Below, one piece after another: positions 12,859-21,679 of a DNA stretch of 64,000 nt. Under the pieces are notes generated by a model, which was given only the letters and a program-made list of their open reading frames with translations, did no database searches and had not been told where the DNA came from. Positions within the stretch are counted from its first letter, which is position 1. Each line of letters opens with the position of its first letter. The DNA comes from Gilvimarinus xylanilyticus (GTDB lineage Bacteria > Pseudomonadota > Gammaproteobacteria > Pseudomonadales > Cellvibrionaceae): the NCBI RefSeq assembly GCF_024195295.1, contig NZ_JAMFTH010000001.1:992001-1056000 (forward strand), given 5' to 3'. The position numbers and the translations under genes are program-made.

Positions 12859-12877
12859 GATAATGATTCTCATTTTA
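12859..12877 (-). promoter_or_regulatory. Fur box upstream of the PepSY/DUF2271/DUF4198/flavoreductase/esterase operon
   Basis: GATAATGATTCTCATTTTA matches 15 of 19 positions of the classical Fur consensus GATAATGATAATCATTATC. It lies in the divergent region between the minus-strand operon and fumC. Given its position I assign it to the minus-strand operon; it may serve both. Confidence 0.75.
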
Positions 12878-12975: not shown

Positions 12976-12994
12976 AGTATTGATAACCGTTATC
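12976..12994 (+). promoter_or_regulatory. Fur box upstream of fumC
   Basis: AGTATTGATAACCGTTATC matches 14 of 19 Fur consensus positions and contains a perfect inverted repeat GATAAC-C-GTTATC. It is about 110 bp before the fumC start. Fur control of fumC is known in Pseudomonas aeruginosa. Confidence 0.75.
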
Positions 12995-13104: not shown

Positions 13105-14475
13105 ATGAGTCACACACGTACCGAAAAAGACAGCATGGGCGAGCTTCAGGTGCCCATTGATGCACTCTATGGCGCCCAAACTCAGCGTGCGGTGAACAAT
13201 TTCCCCATTAGCGGGCAGACGCTACCCGAGGGTTTTATTCGCGCTCTACTGCTGATTAAGTCCGCCGCTGCCGAGGCCAATCACGAGCTGGAAACCCTGG
13301 ACGCAGAGGTAGCCGAGGCGATTGTGAACGCCTGCGCCAAGCTGCAAAAGGACCCGTCCCTTTTGCATCACTTTCCGGTGGATGTGTTTCAAACCGGCTC
13401 GGGCACCAGCTCAAATATGAATGCTAATGAAGTCTTGGCGACCCTGGCGAGCAAAAGCTGCGCCCAGACCATTAGCCCCAATGACCATGTTAACTGTGGC
13501 CAGAGCAGCAACGATGTGATTCCCACGGCGATTCATGTGAGTGCGAGCCTGGCCCTAGCGGAACAATTACTGCCCGCGCTTAACCATTTGGTTAGTACCT
13601 GTCGCGAAAAGGCCGAGGGCCTGGACGAGTACGTCAAAACCGGCCGTACTCACCTGATGGATGCCATGCCCGTGCGCATGAGCCAGCCTATTAACGCATG
13701 GGCCGACACCATGGAGCAGCATGCCGCTAACTTAGAGCACCTACAGGGCCAGCTGCAAAGCTTAGCGCAAGGTGGAACTGCGGTGGGCACCGGCATCAAC
13801 GCCCACCCCAACTTTGCCGAGCGCTTTTGCCACAAGTTGAGTTTACACACCGGCCATATATTCACCCCCGCGCAAAACTTCTTTACCCATATCAGCACCC
13901 AGGACACCGCCGTCGCGCTTTCCGGACAGTTAAAAGGCGTCGCTGTCAGCTTGATTAAAATTGCCAATGATCTGCGCTGGATGAACTCTGGTCCCTTGGC
14001 GGGGCTGGGCGAGATAGAGCTGCAGGCCCTGCAACCCGGCTCATCCATTATGCCCGGCAAGGTGAACCCGGTAATTCCCGAAGCTGCGGTAATGGCGGGC
14101 TATCAAGTCATCGGCAATGACACGGCGATTGCTTTAGGCGGGCAATCGGGCAATTTCGAGCTTAACGTCAGCCTCCCACTGATCGCCCATAATTTGCTGA
14201 ATAGCCTTACCCCGCTCAGTAACAGCTGCCGCTTGATGGCCGACAAGGCCATTGCCACGTTTAAAGTGAACGACGAGCGACTGCAAGAATCGGTAGCGCG
14301 CAACCCTATTTTAGTGACTGCCCTAAACCCGATTGTGGGCTATTTAAAAGCGGCGGAAATTGCCAAGGCTGCCTACGCCAGCAGACGCCCTATTATTGAC
14401 GTCGCCAGCGAAATGACCGACCTCAGCCGCGAAGAGCTGAGCGAACTTCTCGACCCGCGTAAACTGACCGGTTAA
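13105..14475 (+). CDS. fumC: class II fumarate hydratase FumC
   Basis: 456 residues, the normal length for the iron-independent fumarase, which interconverts fumarate and malate in the TCA cycle. The aspartase/fumarase signature GSSIMPGKVNP is intact, as are TGSGTSSNMNANEV, NDVIPTAIHV and the substrate-site GRTHLMDAMP. I chose the ATG at 13105 because AGGAGG precedes it by six bases and MSHTRTEKDSMGELQVP is the family N-terminus; the frame extends further upstream but through the Fur-box region. FumC needs no Fe-S cluster, so induction under iron starvation is expected, and a Fur box lies upstream. A small protein gene follows after 11 bp. Confidence 0.97.
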   Translation: MSHTRTEKDSMGELQVPIDALYGAQTQRAVNNFPISGQTLPEGFIRALLLIKSAAAEANHELETLDAEVAEAIVNACAKLQKDPSLLHHFPVDVFQTGSGTSSNMNANEVLATLASKSCAQTISPNDHVNCGQSSNDVIPTAIHVSASLALAEQLLPALNHLVSTCREKAEGLDEYVKTGRTHLMDAMPVRMSQPINAWADTMEQHAANLEHLQGQLQSLAQGGTAVGTGINAHPNFAERFCHKLSLHTGHIFTPAQNFFTHISTQDTAVALSGQLKGVAVSLIKIANDLRWMNSGPLAGLGEIELQALQPGSSIMPGKVNPVIPEAAVMAGYQVIGNDTAIALGGQSGNFELNVSLPLIAHNLLNSLTPLSNSCRLMADKAIATFKVNDERLQESVARNPILVTALNPIVGYLKAAEIAKAAYASRRPIIDVASEMTDLSREELSELLDPRKLTG

Positions 14476-14486
14476 CGGAGCTTCTC

Positions 14487-14936
14487 ATGGAAAAAAACAC
14501 TGCCGCACTCAGCATTTCCCAGGCCTACTGGCAACAACCCATGGATACCGGCATGCTCGGTTGCCGCCTGCAGACACAGGCGCGTAAACATCTGCAAAAA
14601 AAGTGTTGGGCATTGGCGGTAAAAGATTACGCCGCCGCCCTTGAGGTGGCGGACACCATGTTGGCTGATCCGGTTACGCAAAAATTTGCCATAGAGCGTT
14701 ATCTGCGAGCGGCGCTGGAGCTGATTTACGCGCTTCGCAAACATAAACCCGACACAGACTTATCTGAGTTGATTGAAACCGTAAAGCATCGCTTGCAGCC
14801 CCTGCTTGCCCCGCTGCCGGTCGAGGTAATGATTGCCCCGTTAATCGATGTGGCTTTCTCCCCAATTAGGGATGTGGATGAGTGGATTGATATGCTGTTG
14901 CACGACGATAATCCCGACCGCTCAGTGGCTCACTAA
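14487..14936 (+). CDS. small protein of unnamed family, paralogue A (downstream of fumC)
   Basis: 149 residues, soluble, mostly helical, no signal peptide. A SD-like GGAG precedes the ATG. It shares a clear pattern with the protein encoded at 16496-16903: YL...LELIYAxRK in the middle and PLIDVxFSPxxxVDxW at the C-terminus. Both genes directly follow an iron-sparing enzyme gene with a Fur box upstream. Its place after fumC recalls orfX in the Pseudomonas fagA-fumC-orfX-sodA operon, but I cannot confirm homology. Function unknown. Confidence 0.85.
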   Translation: MEKNTAALSISQAYWQQPMDTGMLGCRLQTQARKHLQKKCWALAVKDYAAALEVADTMLADPVTQKFAIERYLRAALELIYALRKHKPDTDLSELIETVKHRLQPLLAPLPVEVMIAPLIDVAFSPIRDVDEWIDMLLHDDNPDRSVAH

Positions 14937-14987
14937 TCGGCGCAAGCTCAATAGCAAAAGGCTATGCGGGTAACCTTGGGCAGGCCC

Positions 14988-15006
14988 ACGCTTGATAACT
15001 ATTATC
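14988..15006 (+). promoter_or_regulatory. Fur box upstream of yceI-like gene
   Basis: The core TGATAACTATTATCG (14992-15007 region) fits the 7-1-7 Fur model TGATAAT-N-ATTATCA at 12 of 14 arm positions. It lies about 75 bp before the YceI start. Confidence 0.65.
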
Positions 15007-15081
15007 GTTCGGCTTAGGATGCAGGGTAATTTCTACCTCCCACTCACAACCTTAATGATACCCGACGCAAAGAGGCTTAAT

Positions 15082-15669
15082 ATGCGCGCCGTAAAAAACC
15101 TTGCAACCCTGGCATTTTTTTCTTTGGCCAGTGTACCCGCTTTAGCACACTGGACCCTCGACTCGGAGCAATCTACGTTAAGTTATATCTCGGTAAAAAA
15201 TGACACCATTGCCGAGGTTAACCAGTTCGAATCATTCTCCGCCGGTATTGACGATAGCGGCGCCGTAAATATTAGCGTTGATCTTGCCAGTGTTAACACC
15301 AACATTGATATCCGTGACCAACGTTTACGCGATATTTTATTTACTACCGCTGATTTTCCCGAAGCGAACATAAGCGCCCAGTTGGACGCCGACGCAATCG
15401 CCAACCTGAAAAAGAATGCCCCGCAAAATATCGATATAGACCTGCAGGTCGAGCTTCATGGCGAGAGCAAAACCTTGCCTGCACAATTGAGTGTCACCAA
15501 GTTCGATGAACACACCCTACTGGTTGCCACACGCGCCCCGGTTTTACTCAATGCAGCGGATTTCGCCCTGTTAGAAGGCCTTAAAGAGCTGCAATCCATT
15601 GCCGGACTTAACAGTATCCAGCCCGTTGTTCCAATCACCGGCGTATGGACTTTTACGCTGGAGCATTAA
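15082..15669 (+). CDS. YceI-family periplasmic protein
   Basis: 195 residues from the ATG at 15082, which has AGAGG seven bases upstream; the frame continues upstream but there it would cover the Fur box. A signal peptide ends at VPALA, followed by HWTLDSEQSTLSYISVKNDTIAEVNQF, the usual YceI start. DIRDQRLRDILFTTADFPEANI is the family's core motif. YceI proteins are lipocalin-like and bind isoprenoid or other amphiphilic molecules; many have no defined role. Its Fur box and its place between fumC and the flavodoxin gene suggest iron-responsive expression. Confidence 0.88.
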   Translation: MRAVKNLATLAFFSLASVPALAHWTLDSEQSTLSYISVKNDTIAEVNQFESFSAGIDDSGAVNISVDLASVNTNIDIRDQRLRDILFTTADFPEANISAQLDADAIANLKKNAPQNIDIDLQVELHGESKTLPAQLSVTKFDEHTLLVATRAPVLLNAADFALLEGLKELQSIAGLNSIQPVVPITGVWTFTLEH

Positions 15670-15824
15670 TACAAGCGCACGCCAGGCCTCCTCGGGGGCC
15701 TGGGCAGCGTCATATAACAGCCCCTCCGCACCGAATTTCGCTTAGCGCCACTCTGGCTGCCCTGCGCCTCTACAAGCCACCATCCCACTACCGTGTCCGG
15801 CTGTGTCATCGCCAACAAAGTTAT

Positions 15825-15839
15825 TGATAATTGTTATTG
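15825..15839 (+). promoter_or_regulatory. Fur box upstream of the flavodoxin gene
   Basis: TGATAATTGTTATTG: the left arm fits the 7-1-7 Fur model perfectly (TGATAAT) and the right arm in 4 of 7. It is 65 bp before the flavodoxin start, a usual operator distance. Confidence 0.65.
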
Positions 15840-15903
15840 TTTGCATTAATCTACGCTCACTTTAACCCACAACCACCAACAGCATATTGGAGCGTAATAA
15901 AGC

Positions 15904-16452
15904 ATGGCTGATATGATTGACGCGAATGTCGGTTTGATTTTTGGCACCGATACCGGCAACACCGAAGAGGTTGGCGAAAAAATTTCCGCAAGCCTGGCCG
16001 CTCACGGCGTTGTGGTCGAAATGCTCAACGTTACCGACACCTCACCTGAAGAGATTGAGGGGTTCGACTTTTTGATTATGGGAATTCCCACGTGGGATTT
16101 CGGCGGCATTCAGGAAGACTGGGAAGAGTTTGAGGAGCAGATTCTCGCCACCAAGCTTGCCGGTAAAACCGTCGCCCTATACGGCTTGGGTGATCAGCTC
16201 GGCTACGGTTTTTATTTCTTAGATGCCGTGGGTTGGTTAAACGAGCGTGTGCTGAAAGCCGGTGCCCAGGTTATCGGCCATTGGCCCACCCAGGGTTACG
16301 ATTTTGATGAGTCCCTGGCTCTGAATGAGGCGCGCACGCACTTTGTGGGCCTGGGTATTGATGAAGACCAACAATTTGAGCTCACCGACGAGCGAGTGGA
16401 AGGCTGGGTCAATCAAATTATTGCGGAATACGCCAGTGCCAACGCCGCATAA
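15904..16452 (+). CDS. fldA: long-chain flavodoxin
   Basis: 182 residues. FGTDTGNTEEV (13-23) is the FMN phosphate loop; IPTWDFGGIQEDWEEF carries the first isoalloxazine-contacting Trp; LGDQLGYGFYFLDA with the extra loop after it marks the long-chain type. Flavodoxins carry single electrons and replace ferredoxin when iron is short, which matches the Fur-like box 65 bp upstream. The C-terminus (AEYASANAA) is slightly longer than in E. coli FldA. The gene symbol follows the family and is not proven orthology. Confidence 0.93.
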   Translation: MADMIDANVGLIFGTDTGNTEEVGEKISASLAAHGVVVEMLNVTDTSPEEIEGFDFLIMGIPTWDFGGIQEDWEEFEEQILATKLAGKTVALYGLGDQLGYGFYFLDAVGWLNERVLKAGAQVIGHWPTQGYDFDESLALNEARTHFVGLGIDEDQQFELTDERVEGWVNQIIAEYASANAA

Positions 16453-16495
16453 TCGCCCTCGTCAATTTTTATGCGCCCGACACAGGGCGCAGGTA

Positions 16496-16903
16496 TTGCA
16501 AAGCCCGGCCCGCTGTCGGGCGTTGGTACAACGCCTGCGACGCGAAGCGCACGGCGCGTTGAACTCCGCAGACTGGCGCGAGGCCATCTCTTTTCTCGGC
16601 ACCGCCTGCGAGAGTATTGAGCTACTGCTTGAGCGCGAGCGCATCGCTTCGGCGGATGTGAATTACTACCTACAACTGTCCCTCGAGCTTATCTATGCGT
16701 GCCGCAAATCCGATTACGCCATCCAGACTGATGTGCTTATCGAGCGGGTTAAGCGCTGTTTGGAACCCCACTATTCGCTCGAAGATAGCCACCGAATGCT
16801 AAAACCCCTGATTGATGTGTCTTTTTCCCCGCTGGCAGAGGTCGATGGCTGGATGCAGACCATTCAAGCCATGAACGAGCGCTCTTATCGCGTATTGCAT
16901 TAG
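16496..16903 (+). CDS. small protein of unnamed family, paralogue B (downstream of flavodoxin)
   Basis: About 135 residues. It shares YLxxxLELIYAxRK, then LIExVKxxLxP and PLIDVxFSPxxxVDxW, with the protein encoded after fumC, so the two are paralogues. No ATG lies in this frame at the right place. The best start is a TTG at 16496 with AGGG eight bases before it; the frame is open further upstream into the flavodoxin gene but that overlap is unlikely to be translated. The ATG at 16471 is in another frame and leads to a short peptide with an early stop. Likely co-transcribed with the flavodoxin gene. Function unknown. Confidence 0.75.
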   Translation: MQSPARCRALVQRLRREAHGALNSADWREAISFLGTACESIELLLERERIASADVNYYLQLSLELIYACRKSDYAIQTDVLIERVKRCLEPHYSLEDSHRMLKPLIDVSFSPLAEVDGWMQTIQAMNERSYRVLH

Positions 16904-19301: not shown

Positions 19302-21647
19302 TTAGAAACGATAATCCAAACTTACTCCCCATTGGCGCGGCGCGCCCAAAGTGACAGAGGGCGGCGTTCCTACATTGGCAAGCTCCACATACTCTTCATC
19401 CAACAGGTTGGTTACCGTTGCGTAGAGCGCGACCTGATCCCACTCGTATCCCAGTTTGGCATTGACCAGGGTGCGGGCATCGTTTTGCGGATCAAAGCCC
19501 GGGTCTCCCTCAGTCAAACCATTGGCGTAGGGGTTCACCGCCACGATAGAGCTATCGGCATAGTTGGCGTTCACGCTGGCAAACAAGCCACTCGCGGCGC
19601 GGTAGCTCGCGCCAATATTGGCCGTCCATTCGGGCGCCCGGGGAAATGCCCGGCCCGCCAGATCATAAGTTGCCGTGGGCTGCACAATAGTAAACTCATC
19701 GAACTCGGTGTGCGAATAACCTAAGCCACCAAACACCTGCAGCGCTTCGGTCACGGCATAGTTCAGCTCAAGCTCAAACCCTTCGACGGTCGAGCTGCCT
19801 GCATTCTGTGTTTCGGTGTCATAAGAGTTACCCGACAACTGAACCGCAATCTGTTGATCTTGCCAATCGATAAAAAACACATTGGCGTTGGCGGTCAGGG
19901 CGCCATCCAACCAAGCGGTACGCAGGGCCAGTTCGTAGTTGTCGGTGAACTCTGGCTGGTAAGTAAAAATAGAGCCACGAGCCACATTGGTCCCTACCCC
20001 GCCCGAGCGGTAACCCTCTTGATAAGTAAAACTTAGACTGACGTCATCGGTAAAACGATAAGTGGTCCCGAGCTTGGGCAGCCATTCATCAAAACTCGCA
20101 TCGGACGGCGGTTCGGTGCCAGAGGCGTCGTCTACCATTTGATAGAGCTGCGCATTAATACCCGTAATCAGCATGGCAAACTGAGGGTTGGCAGCATAGT
20201 CGGCCGGGTTGGGTAATAAATCTTCGTTATCGATGGTGTACAGCGTATCACTGGCGTTGCGCTGCTCTTCTTTATCCCAGCGCAAGCCGCCGAATATATC
20301 CCAGTTGTCGGTCAGGCGAAAAGTCAGGTCGGTAAACACCGCTTGGGTTTCCACGCCTTGCTCTAGTTTTGAATAGGTGCCCAAGCGGACCGGATCGATA
20401 GGCGCGTAGAGTGACAGCACCGTATCCGCGGTGGCTTGATCCAATCCAATACCACCGTATTCGGGCGGCGTTACTAACAATGTGGGCAGACCGGTTTGCT
20501 GTATGGTTAAGCTGCGTTGGCCGTTGGCTTCATCCACCACATCCAAGTCCGAATAATAAGCGCCTACAACACCGCTTAAGCGCTCAAACTCCATCACCAG
20601 GCGAAACTCCTGACTCAGGGTTTCATCCACACGATCATCGATTAACACTGACAGTGGTTCCGCGGTCGCATCGCCATCCCACTCGTAACCGTATTGGGAA
20701 TCGGAATAGCTGGTAATCGACATCAACTCCAGATTGTCATTGATGCGGTAATCGAGGTTCAGCGTGGTGATGTCGGCATCGTTTTTTTCAAAGGTCGGAT
20801 CGTTAAAGGTGACGATTCGGTGATCGAAATCGCTACCGCCCTGCTCCGGATTAGGTTCGGTCCAGCGCACGCCATATTCGGTTTCGGTGCGGGTAAAGCT
20901 TAAAAGCGCCGACAGATCTTCGGTGGGCTCAAACAACAGCTTACCGCGGTAGGTGTTGTTATTGTTAAAGTCGGGGTGATCGCCGCGAGTGATATTATCG
21001 TTAATGCCATCAAAGTCGTATTGCTCGGCACTGACACGGAATGCTAAGACGTCATCAATAAGCGCACCGCCGCCGGCAAATGCCAGCTGCTGCTTGCCGT
21101 ATTCTCCCGCGCCCAAACGCAACTTACCTTCCCACTCGTAGGTAGGATCTTGAGTGTTCACCACAATGGCGCCGGCGAGCGAGTTGCGCCCCTGCAAGGT
21201 CGACTGAGGGCCTCGCAGCACCTCTACCTGGGAGACGTCCCAGGTTAAAAAGCCGCTTTTTTGGATTGCGCGATAAGGTAAAGGAGCACCGTCGACATAG
21301 ACACTGGCCAGATAACTATTGCCGCCACCGGATACGTTGAAAGCATCAATGCCCCGGATACTAAAACCGCTGCCCAAGGTACCGTGCACATTGGGCACCC
21401 GGTCTAGCAGGCCGTAAAAACTGTCGATTTGCTGATCTTCCATAAACCCTTCGGTCAATACTGCCACACTGGCCGGAGTATCTTGCAGCGAGCGCTCGAC
21501 CTTTTGTCCCGTAACCACCAGCTCCTCGGCTTTGGGTATGGATTCTTCGGTTTGCGCTTGAGCGCACAGTGATGTGATCAGGCAGCCGAGCACGCAAGTC
21601 GACTTCATCGGAAAGGCTGTATTAGACATGATATTGGTTTCCCCCAT
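19302..21647 (-). CDS. TonB-dependent outer-membrane receptor
   Basis: 781 residues with a signal peptide (core CVLGCLITSLCAQAQ). EELVVTGQK is the TonB box, followed by the plug domain (DTPASVAVLTEGFMEDQQ, VEVLRGPQSTLQGRNSLAGAIVV) and a 22-strand barrel ending in aromatic QWGVSLDYRF. The start at 21647 has AGG seven bases before it; an ATG at 21629 preceded by GGGGGAA is equally possible and gives a more usual signal peptide. The ligand cannot be read from sequence, but a strong Fur box lies directly upstream and DUF3649/PepSY/DUF3325 genes converge on it, so a ferric siderophore is most likely. Confidence 0.95.
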   Translation of the reverse strand: MGETNIMSNTAFPMKSTCVLGCLITSLCAQAQTEESIPKAEELVVTGQKVERSLQDTPASVAVLTEGFMEDQQIDSFYGLLDRVPNVHGTLGSGFSIRGIDAFNVSGGGNSYLASVYVDGAPLPYRAIQKSGFLTWDVSQVEVLRGPQSTLQGRNSLAGAIVVNTQDPTYEWEGKLRLGAGEYGKQQLAFAGGGALIDDVLAFRVSAEQYDFDGINDNITRGDHPDFNNNNTYRGKLLFEPTEDLSALLSFTRTETEYGVRWTEPNPEQGGSDFDHRIVTFNDPTFEKNDADITTLNLDYRINDNLELMSITSYSDSQYGYEWDGDATAEPLSVLIDDRVDETLSQEFRLVMEFERLSGVVGAYYSDLDVVDEANGQRSLTIQQTGLPTLLVTPPEYGGIGLDQATADTVLSLYAPIDPVRLGTYSKLEQGVETQAVFTDLTFRLTDNWDIFGGLRWDKEEQRNASDTLYTIDNEDLLPNPADYAANPQFAMLITGINAQLYQMVDDASGTEPPSDASFDEWLPKLGTTYRFTDDVSLSFTYQEGYRSGGVGTNVARGSIFTYQPEFTDNYELALRTAWLDGALTANANVFFIDWQDQQIAVQLSGNSYDTETQNAGSSTVEGFELELNYAVTEALQVFGGLGYSHTEFDEFTIVQPTATYDLAGRAFPRAPEWTANIGASYRAASGLFASVNANYADSSIVAVNPYANGLTEGDPGFDPQNDARTLVNAKLGYEWDQVALYATVTNLLDEEYVELANVGTPPSVTLGAPRQWGVSLDYRF

Positions 21648-21660
21648 AAAACCACCTAAA

Positions 21661-21679
21661 GATAATGATATTAATTATC
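21661..21679 (-). promoter_or_regulatory. Fur box upstream of the TonB-dependent receptor
   Basis: GATAATGATATTAATTATC matches 17 of 19 consensus positions, the best Fur box in the window. It ends 14 bp before the first possible start codon of the receptor gene. Confidence 0.85.

Follow-up and report, generated by a model that had tools for sequence, protein, structure and literature searches.

A largely uncatalogued, iron-controlled family of small proteins with a terminal histidine in Gilvimarinus xylanilyticus and its order, probably including Pseudomonas OrfX

Two small genes in a 64,000-nucleotide window of Gilvimarinus xylanilyticus (assembly GCF_024195295.1, contig NZ_JAMFTH010000001.1, positions 992,001 to 1,056,000; window coordinates are used below) encode members of a protein family that is real, largely uncatalogued and iron-controlled. 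The first, FAM1 (14487..14936, plus strand, 149 aa), follows fumC, the second, FAM2 (16436..16903, plus strand, 155 aa), follows a flavodoxin gene (fld), and both are probably related to OrfX, so far a hypothetical protein in the well-known Fur operon fagA-fumC-orfX-sodA. Three features can be read directly from the sequences: the family itself, the Fur-like sites found at the majority of the promoters studied and a strongly conserved histidine as the last residue. Throughout a large bacterial order, the family seems to be induced when iron is short. The best explanation that we can offer, tentatively, is that FAM1, FAM2 and OrfX form a single Fur-controlled family with a fold like that of tetratricopeptide repeats (TPR), whose members would be short-lived, client-binding helpers cleared by Lon or a similar protease.

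Two paralogues and the extent of their family

Both open reading frames are real and, as a sequence-only reading of the window had proposed, the two proteins are paralogous rather than unrelated: BLASTP aligns them without gaps over 122 residues (34% identity, E 6e-18), the three motifs quoted in that reading are present at equal spacing, and a search of the genome with FAM1 returns matches at two places only, FAM1 and FAM2 themselves. The same reading let the second protein begin at 16496, which is probably incorrect. The start of FAM2 is probably the GTG codon at 16436, which overlaps the fld stop by 17 nt and is likewise GTG in the two closest relatives (L026 and L027). We prefer this codon because it restores a conserved N-terminal FLCxxH (FLCARH in FAM2) that relatives carry ahead of codon 16496; a start at the TTG at 16496 would cut the motif off and was rejected on that ground. 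FAM1 is devoid of the motif, and the C-termini read SVAH in FAM1 and RVLH in FAM2. Neither protein reaches the cut-off of any Pfam or NCBIfam model, and the same is true of Pfam in 7/7 scanned relatives and of NCBIfam in 6/6 taken from these seven.

To delimit the family, genomes of the window's taxonomic family, order and class were scanned, with a first pass that scores only part of the candidates. Matches were obtained in 23 of 120 genomes of the taxonomic family, in 75 of 390 genomes of the order (28-row profile; this count takes in a few doubtful rows, among them one with an internal stop and one inside a 520-aa frame) and in 2 of 274 genomes of the class, one of which is the window's own, the class search having been made with the FAM profile only, without OrfX. 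As far as found, the family is confined almost entirely to the window's order. The open frame and a conserved core are kept across many families of this order, mostly behind Fur-like sites, and the columns conserved at 90% or more (FAM1 numbering) are W41, A44, A51, Y72, E78, L103, W133 and the last residue, H149. Literature searches returned no function for OrfX or the family in the accessible portions of open-licence papers.

Relationship to OrfX of Pseudomonas-type operons

Here, OrfX designates the gene in the orfX place of Pseudomonas-type operons, the sequence of PA4469 (orfX) itself lying outside the comparison. The genus that carries fagA-fumC-orfX-sodA (the G261 genus) is taken to be Pseudomonas from its operon order, which is fagA, fumC, orfX, sodA and a ZIP transporter gene, the last two recognised by Pfam (Sod_Fe for sodA; Zip, E 3.8e-24). 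OrfX was found in 90 of the 119 genomes of this genus, and its 50 sequences (46 distinct) are 142–153 aa long. All 50 loci hold sodA and 47 hold fumC; in the other three (L172, L174 and L181), orfX and sodA are present with fumC not found, and in L181 fagA was not found either.

That the position of FAM1 behind fumC recalls orfX was a hunch of the sequence-only reading, and it gains support from profile comparison and from a shared terminal histidine (see below). With hhalign, the window group matches members of a genus that we label Marinobacter-type (probability 98.6, E 5.7e-16, 107 columns), the latter match OrfX (probability 83.8, E 7.8e-6, 87 columns), and the direct comparison of the window group with OrfX gives a probability of 84.0 over only 51 columns, all of them scores that a TPR-like bias could inflate. 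Via the Marinobacter-type members, OrfX probably belongs to the same family as FAM1 and FAM2. On a tree of 106 rows, the OrfX-type rows form one branch (n = 11: nine of the 50 Pseudomonas-type sequences and two linked to SodN). Within the window's taxonomic family, an OrfX-type gene adjoins a nickel superoxide dismutase (SOD) in two loci, L121 (Pfam Sod_Ni, E 5.6e-49) and L022 (recognised by eye), both of which also hold an fld-FAM pair. These loci have the aspect of iron-sparing islands, with an OrfX-type gene, nickel SOD, 3'-phosphoadenosine 5'-phosphosulfate reductase, a fur-like gene, fld, FAM, fagA and fumC in L121:1542-7757, and fld, FAM, an OrfX-type gene and nickel SOD in L022:809-3085.

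In the accessible parts of the published record, PA4469 is listed as hypothetical, in an operon described as Fur-repressed and induced by iron starvation (PMC3224232), the fagA-fumC-orfX-sodA operon of Pf-5 is among the loci up under iron limitation (PMC3377617), and PA4469 figures in a table of the core biofilm transcriptome (PMC6954232). DUF2753 is a possible distant relative (OrfX of L114, 5921-6355: 21.6 bits, cut-off 28.7, E 2.6e-4); a search for it gave zero matches in 321 genomes of the class and zero also in 14 control genomes, and is hence uninformative. Finally, FagA forms a second small family missing from the catalogues, frequently placed ahead of fumC and sometimes adjoining FAM and haem-uptake genes (L014:1977-2420, L114:4129-4524, L120:5384-5737, L118:6159-6599); a search with the L014 query matched 17 of 244 genomes of the order. 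The L014 neighbour between FAM and fumC had been a candidate OrfX homologue and was rejected as such, being a FagA relative that stands ahead of fumC in other genomes.

Iron control and gene neighbours

Fur-like sites were defined by at least 14 of 19 matches to a 19-bp consensus. Among the 75 loci scored, which are those with wide flanks (L117-L131, L184-L243), include near-duplicates (e.g., L192/L193, L194/L199, L225/L228, L237/L238) and leave most fld-linked members of the window's taxonomic family unscored, 53 have such a site upstream, versus 11 of 331 control regions, taken upstream of other genes in the same DNA, and about 1.1% of 1323 random windows at the same threshold. The sites occur in 45 of the 65 loci not labelled Fld and in 8 of the 10 labelled Fld. 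Eight of the 22 misses lie behind another iron or fld gene of the same direction (L124, L126, L130, L224, L235, L237, L238, L242), so that the true promoter may sit further up; the remaining 14 have no such gene upstream.

Five sites reach the threshold in the whole window. The two small genes had been read as each sitting behind a Fur box, which stands at the level of the operons: sites of 14/19 lie ahead of fumC (12976..12994, plus strand) and ahead of fld (15820..15838, plus strand), and none lies between an enzyme gene and the small gene that follows it. A strong site (21661-21679, 17/19) is located just upstream of a TonB-receptor-like gene on the minus strand (19302-21647); taken with those at 12859 and 16994, it hints at a Fur island of greater extent in the window.

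What is constant across the family is iron-starvation control, not an iron-sparing neighbour. Neighbours were labelled within about 1.5 to 6 kb, by tblastn with our own seeds and by eye, which gave 26 Fld, 5 FumC, 12 iron uptake or storage, 11 OrfX-Sod and 52 other rows on the tree; "other" means that no seed matched, nothing more, and two of the Fld labels are weak (L229, at 30% identity, and L221, on the other strand). One side of the tree (42 rows) gathers 25 Fld, all 5 FumC, 7 iron uptake or storage and 5 other rows, and the window's taxonomic family alone (28 rows) has 15 Fld, 5 FumC, 5 iron and 3 other. One clade travels with flavodoxin, with the FumC-linked copies inside it, and OrfX travels with SodA and, twice, with a nickel SOD. 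As the FumC-linked group is a single branch beside Fld-linked copies from Gilvimarinus, FAM1 would most simply derive from a flavodoxin-linked copy.

The sequence-only reading had proposed a recurrent link to enzymes that replace iron-containing ones. Such a link holds for the flavodoxin clade and for OrfX, and a complete lack of iron association in members elsewhere is not what we found, but it is too narrow for the family as a whole, 52 of the 106 rows having no recognised iron gene nearby. Moreover, neighbours swap repeatedly (10 changes for the Fld label), and the iron labels are scattered (11 changes vs. a shuffled mean of 11.5), so that iron neighbours may reflect shared regulation only. 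Because most loci, including 45 of the 65 not labelled Fld, still have a Fur-like site, shared neighbours are in part a by-product of shared Fur control.

Regarding the enzyme genes of the window, fumC (13105..14475, plus strand) encodes a class II fumarase of 456 aa (Pfam Lyase_1, E 1.3e-92; FumaraseC_C, E 2e-18), for which the NCBIfam models of an aspartate ammonia-lyase subfamily (501.3 bits, cut-off 510) and of fumC_II (491.1 bits, cut-off 664.75) both remain below cut-off. Class II fumarases (FumC) are metal-free. The fld gene (15904..16452, plus strand) encodes a long-chain flavodoxin (NCBIfam flav_long, 187.6 bits, cut-off 146.75). Between the two units, after FAM1, lies a YceI-like gene (14992-15669) whose position is kept in several Gilvimarinus genomes; with this gene behind FAM1, and with FAM2 behind fld, neither window gene occupies a place between fumC and sodA. 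In another Gilvimarinus genome (L029:1419-1605), a decayed fld is followed by FAM remnants, and the pair is intact in the same DNA of two relatives.

Terminal histidine, predicted fold and competing explanations

Among 100 members whose last 90 residues all differ from one another (L047, a wrong frame, and OrfX set aside), the last residue is histidine in 86, versus 20 of 353 background open frames (at least 250 aa). The residue before it is L, V or I in 49 of these 86 members and Y in 9. In Pseudomonas-type OrfX, histidine comes last in 50/50 sequences, usually as GVH, behind a tail that varies in length and sequence. Both CAC and CAT are used, as are all three stop codons, which indicates that selection acts on the amino acid; an artefact of a downstream Shine-Dalgarno sequence or overlapping gene is unlikely, given that codons and stops vary and that FAM2 is followed by ~150 nt without a gene. 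One member (L061:6001-6519, the L008 gene) is longer than its nearest relative, yet its longer tail again ends in histidine (IVAH).

This ending resembles the C-terminal-histidine degron of Lon (SulA, LarA, Smg), a signal for rapid destruction. In the accessible parts of the two papers concerned, the degron is given as x-(L/I)-(L/I/V)-H, with histidine as the best last residue (PMC11986505), GFP-degron reporters are degraded much more slowly, and LarA is stabilised in cells, once the terminal histidine is changed to aspartate (PMC11986505, PMC10665427), and the end with the terminal histidine is what LarA, a small heat-shock protein, uses to bind Lon and activate it (PMC10665427). The VLH of FAM2 fits the pattern loosely, the VAH of FAM1 as a weak variant.

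As for the body of the protein, a TPR-like helical fold is predicted. AlphaFold2, run with nine sequences, gives seven helices for FAM2 (predicted local distance difference test score, pLDDT, 81.6; predicted template modelling score, pTM, 0.77) and for FAM1 (pLDDT 82.2, pTM 0.75, residues 144-149 below 50). Most of the PDB folds nearest to the FAM2 model belong to TPR proteins, among them several binders of C-terminal peptides, with zero Foldseek matches at E 0.001 or better; VIA Z values of up to 10.8 fall within the chance range for helical repeats, and other folds are compatible too. The family profile compared with PDB sequences matches consensus TPR proteins (E 1e-9), and no individual stretch passes by itself. 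Pfam TPR_2 (cut-off 27 bits) is passed by OrfX of L114 (30.6 bits), OrfX of L162 (24.9) and of L121 (24.2) falling short, and no Pfam TPR model reaches cut-off in the window proteins and seven FAM relatives (best, TPR_2 at 16.7 of 27 bits).

According to the explanation that we favour, Fur would repress these genes when iron is plentiful, and its release upon a fall in iron would let the protein be made. The helical body would then bind a protein client of the low-iron programme, and the C-terminal histidine, which mostly follows a hydrophobic residue at the end of a variable tail, would be the degron by which Lon or a comparable AAA+ protease recognises the protein. Handed over in this way, the protein would be short-lived and, perhaps with its client, would vanish quickly when iron returns. 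A role in the regulation or turnover of an iron-dependent counterpart, as suggested from the sequence beforehand, is compatible with such a degron.

Several points weigh against this proposal. Neither of the two OrfX-type proteins next to nickel SOD has a terminal histidine, their last residues being Ser and Asn, 14 of the 100 members (OrfX excluded) miss it as well, and FAM1 and its four orthologues have Pro or Ala before it. In the model of FAM2, the last helix is predicted up to residue 154 of 155, so that the end may not be a free tail. In the accessible parts of the sources, the preference of Lon for a terminal histidine is shown for Yersinia and Caulobacter proteins (PMC11986505, PMC10665427), LarA Asp variants are still degraded in vitro, after a delay (PMC10665427), and SulA of Pseudomonas, although its C-terminus is different, is degraded by Lon (PMC12221181). 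Likewise, the SulA-family ends read in the order (30 of 45 matches) are Gly in 24/30 and His in 2/30, and the paper on Lon substrates in P. aeruginosa (PMC12221181) does not name PA4469 in its main text. Smg, taken as an in-order control, was over cut-off in 0/56 genomes.

The same residue might instead belong to a metal or haem site, the terminal histidine binding iron, zinc, manganese or haem together with CxxH or a loop CxxC, in a metal chaperone or intracellular iron sensor, which we regard as unlikely. An FLCxxH-type motif is present in 79 of the 100 members, a CxxC-like pair in the alpha3/alpha4 loop replaces it in 6 of the 13 members of the window's taxonomic family without it (L010, L016, L020, L021, L023, L024), although a loose CxxC pattern further on also occurs in 2 of the 15 with FLCxxH, and OrfX lies between fumC and sodA with the ZIP transporter gene next. 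Yet the two ends are not associated (both 70, motif only 9, His only 16, neither 5; Fisher p 0.16), which weakens a joint metal site, OrfX and FAM1 keep the histidine though devoid of the N-terminal motif, and the OrfX tail ahead of it is variable. Most members, though not every one, have the N-terminal CxxH, which might serve on its own for metal binding or docking; the loop pair gives the impression of a metal or redox site that has shifted its position.

No likelier is the idea that the protein serves the neighbouring enzyme (flavodoxin, fumarase, SOD) as its own chaperone or as a factor for inserting its cofactor, with a TPR-like groove holding the enzyme or its C-terminus. The flavodoxin linkage of one clade (25/42 rows), the constant presence of sodA at OrfX loci and the top Foldseek matches, which include C-terminal-peptide-binding TPRs (Sec72, Hop TPR2A), speak for it, but they have to be set against the 52 rows without a recognised iron gene, the repeated swapping of neighbours and the three OrfX loci with sodA in which fumC was not found. 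Alternatively, the protein could be a passenger in the Fur regulon, its role small or redundant and its terminal histidine only setting the half-life. A table that lists loss-of-function mutations and deletions among bronchiectasis isolates gives PA4469 a count of 7, which, as far as the accessible part of the source goes, suggests that its loss is tolerated or favoured in that niche (PMC5898933), and OrfX was not found in 29 of the 119 Pseudomonas-type genomes; conservation of the open frame and the core across numerous families of the order, with Fur-like sites ahead in most cases, speaks against a passenger, which seems about as unlikely as the two preceding ideas. The most doubtful version is that OrfX and FAM proteins are iron-starvation-specific Lon regulators or adaptors, by analogy with LarA or HspQ: induced through Fur, they would dock on Lon by the histidine while the TPR-like body brings in iron-dependent enzymes or redirects Lon to them, the iron-free replacements of these enzymes (FumC, flavodoxin, Mn- or Ni-SOD) being frequently encoded at that locus too.

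The gene at the orfX position now has a place in a family that spans the order, is controlled by iron and shares one dominant residue open to test, the final histidine. This residue offers a concrete handle on mechanism and allows an open annotation to be addressed by a simple experiment. If the degron proposal is true, a set of Fur-regulated proteins is also under proteolytic control; if the adaptor version is true, iron sparing in Pseudomonas and its relatives has a protease arm, acting at the protein level beside small RNAs.

Compared with known systems, the window proteins share with Pseudomonas OrfX (PA4469) a Fur or iron-starvation operon, a small helical protein, the terminal histidine and profile homology, whereas OrfX is without the N-terminal FLCxxH (as is FAM1) and has sodA next to it, a gene absent beside the window genes. 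LarA, the Caulobacter activator of Lon, is alike in being small and stress-induced, with a conserved C-terminus that ends in histidine and is needed for Lon binding (PMC10665427, accessible part), but it is under heat-shock control, 89 aa long and alphaproteobacterial; it is likened here by description, an action of Lon on OrfX and FAM being what we infer. SulA, Smg and other Lon substrates with histidine degrons have an x-L/I-L/I/V-H-like end (PMC11986505, accessible part), to be compared with the VLH of FAM2, while their bodies differ by annotation and Pseudomonas SulA itself is without such an end. Lastly, the peptide-binding TPRs (Hop TPR2A, FKBP51, Sec72) are among the best structural neighbours of the FAM2 model, even though FAM2 has no Foldseek match at E 0.001 or better and the window proteins stay below the Pfam TPR cut-offs.

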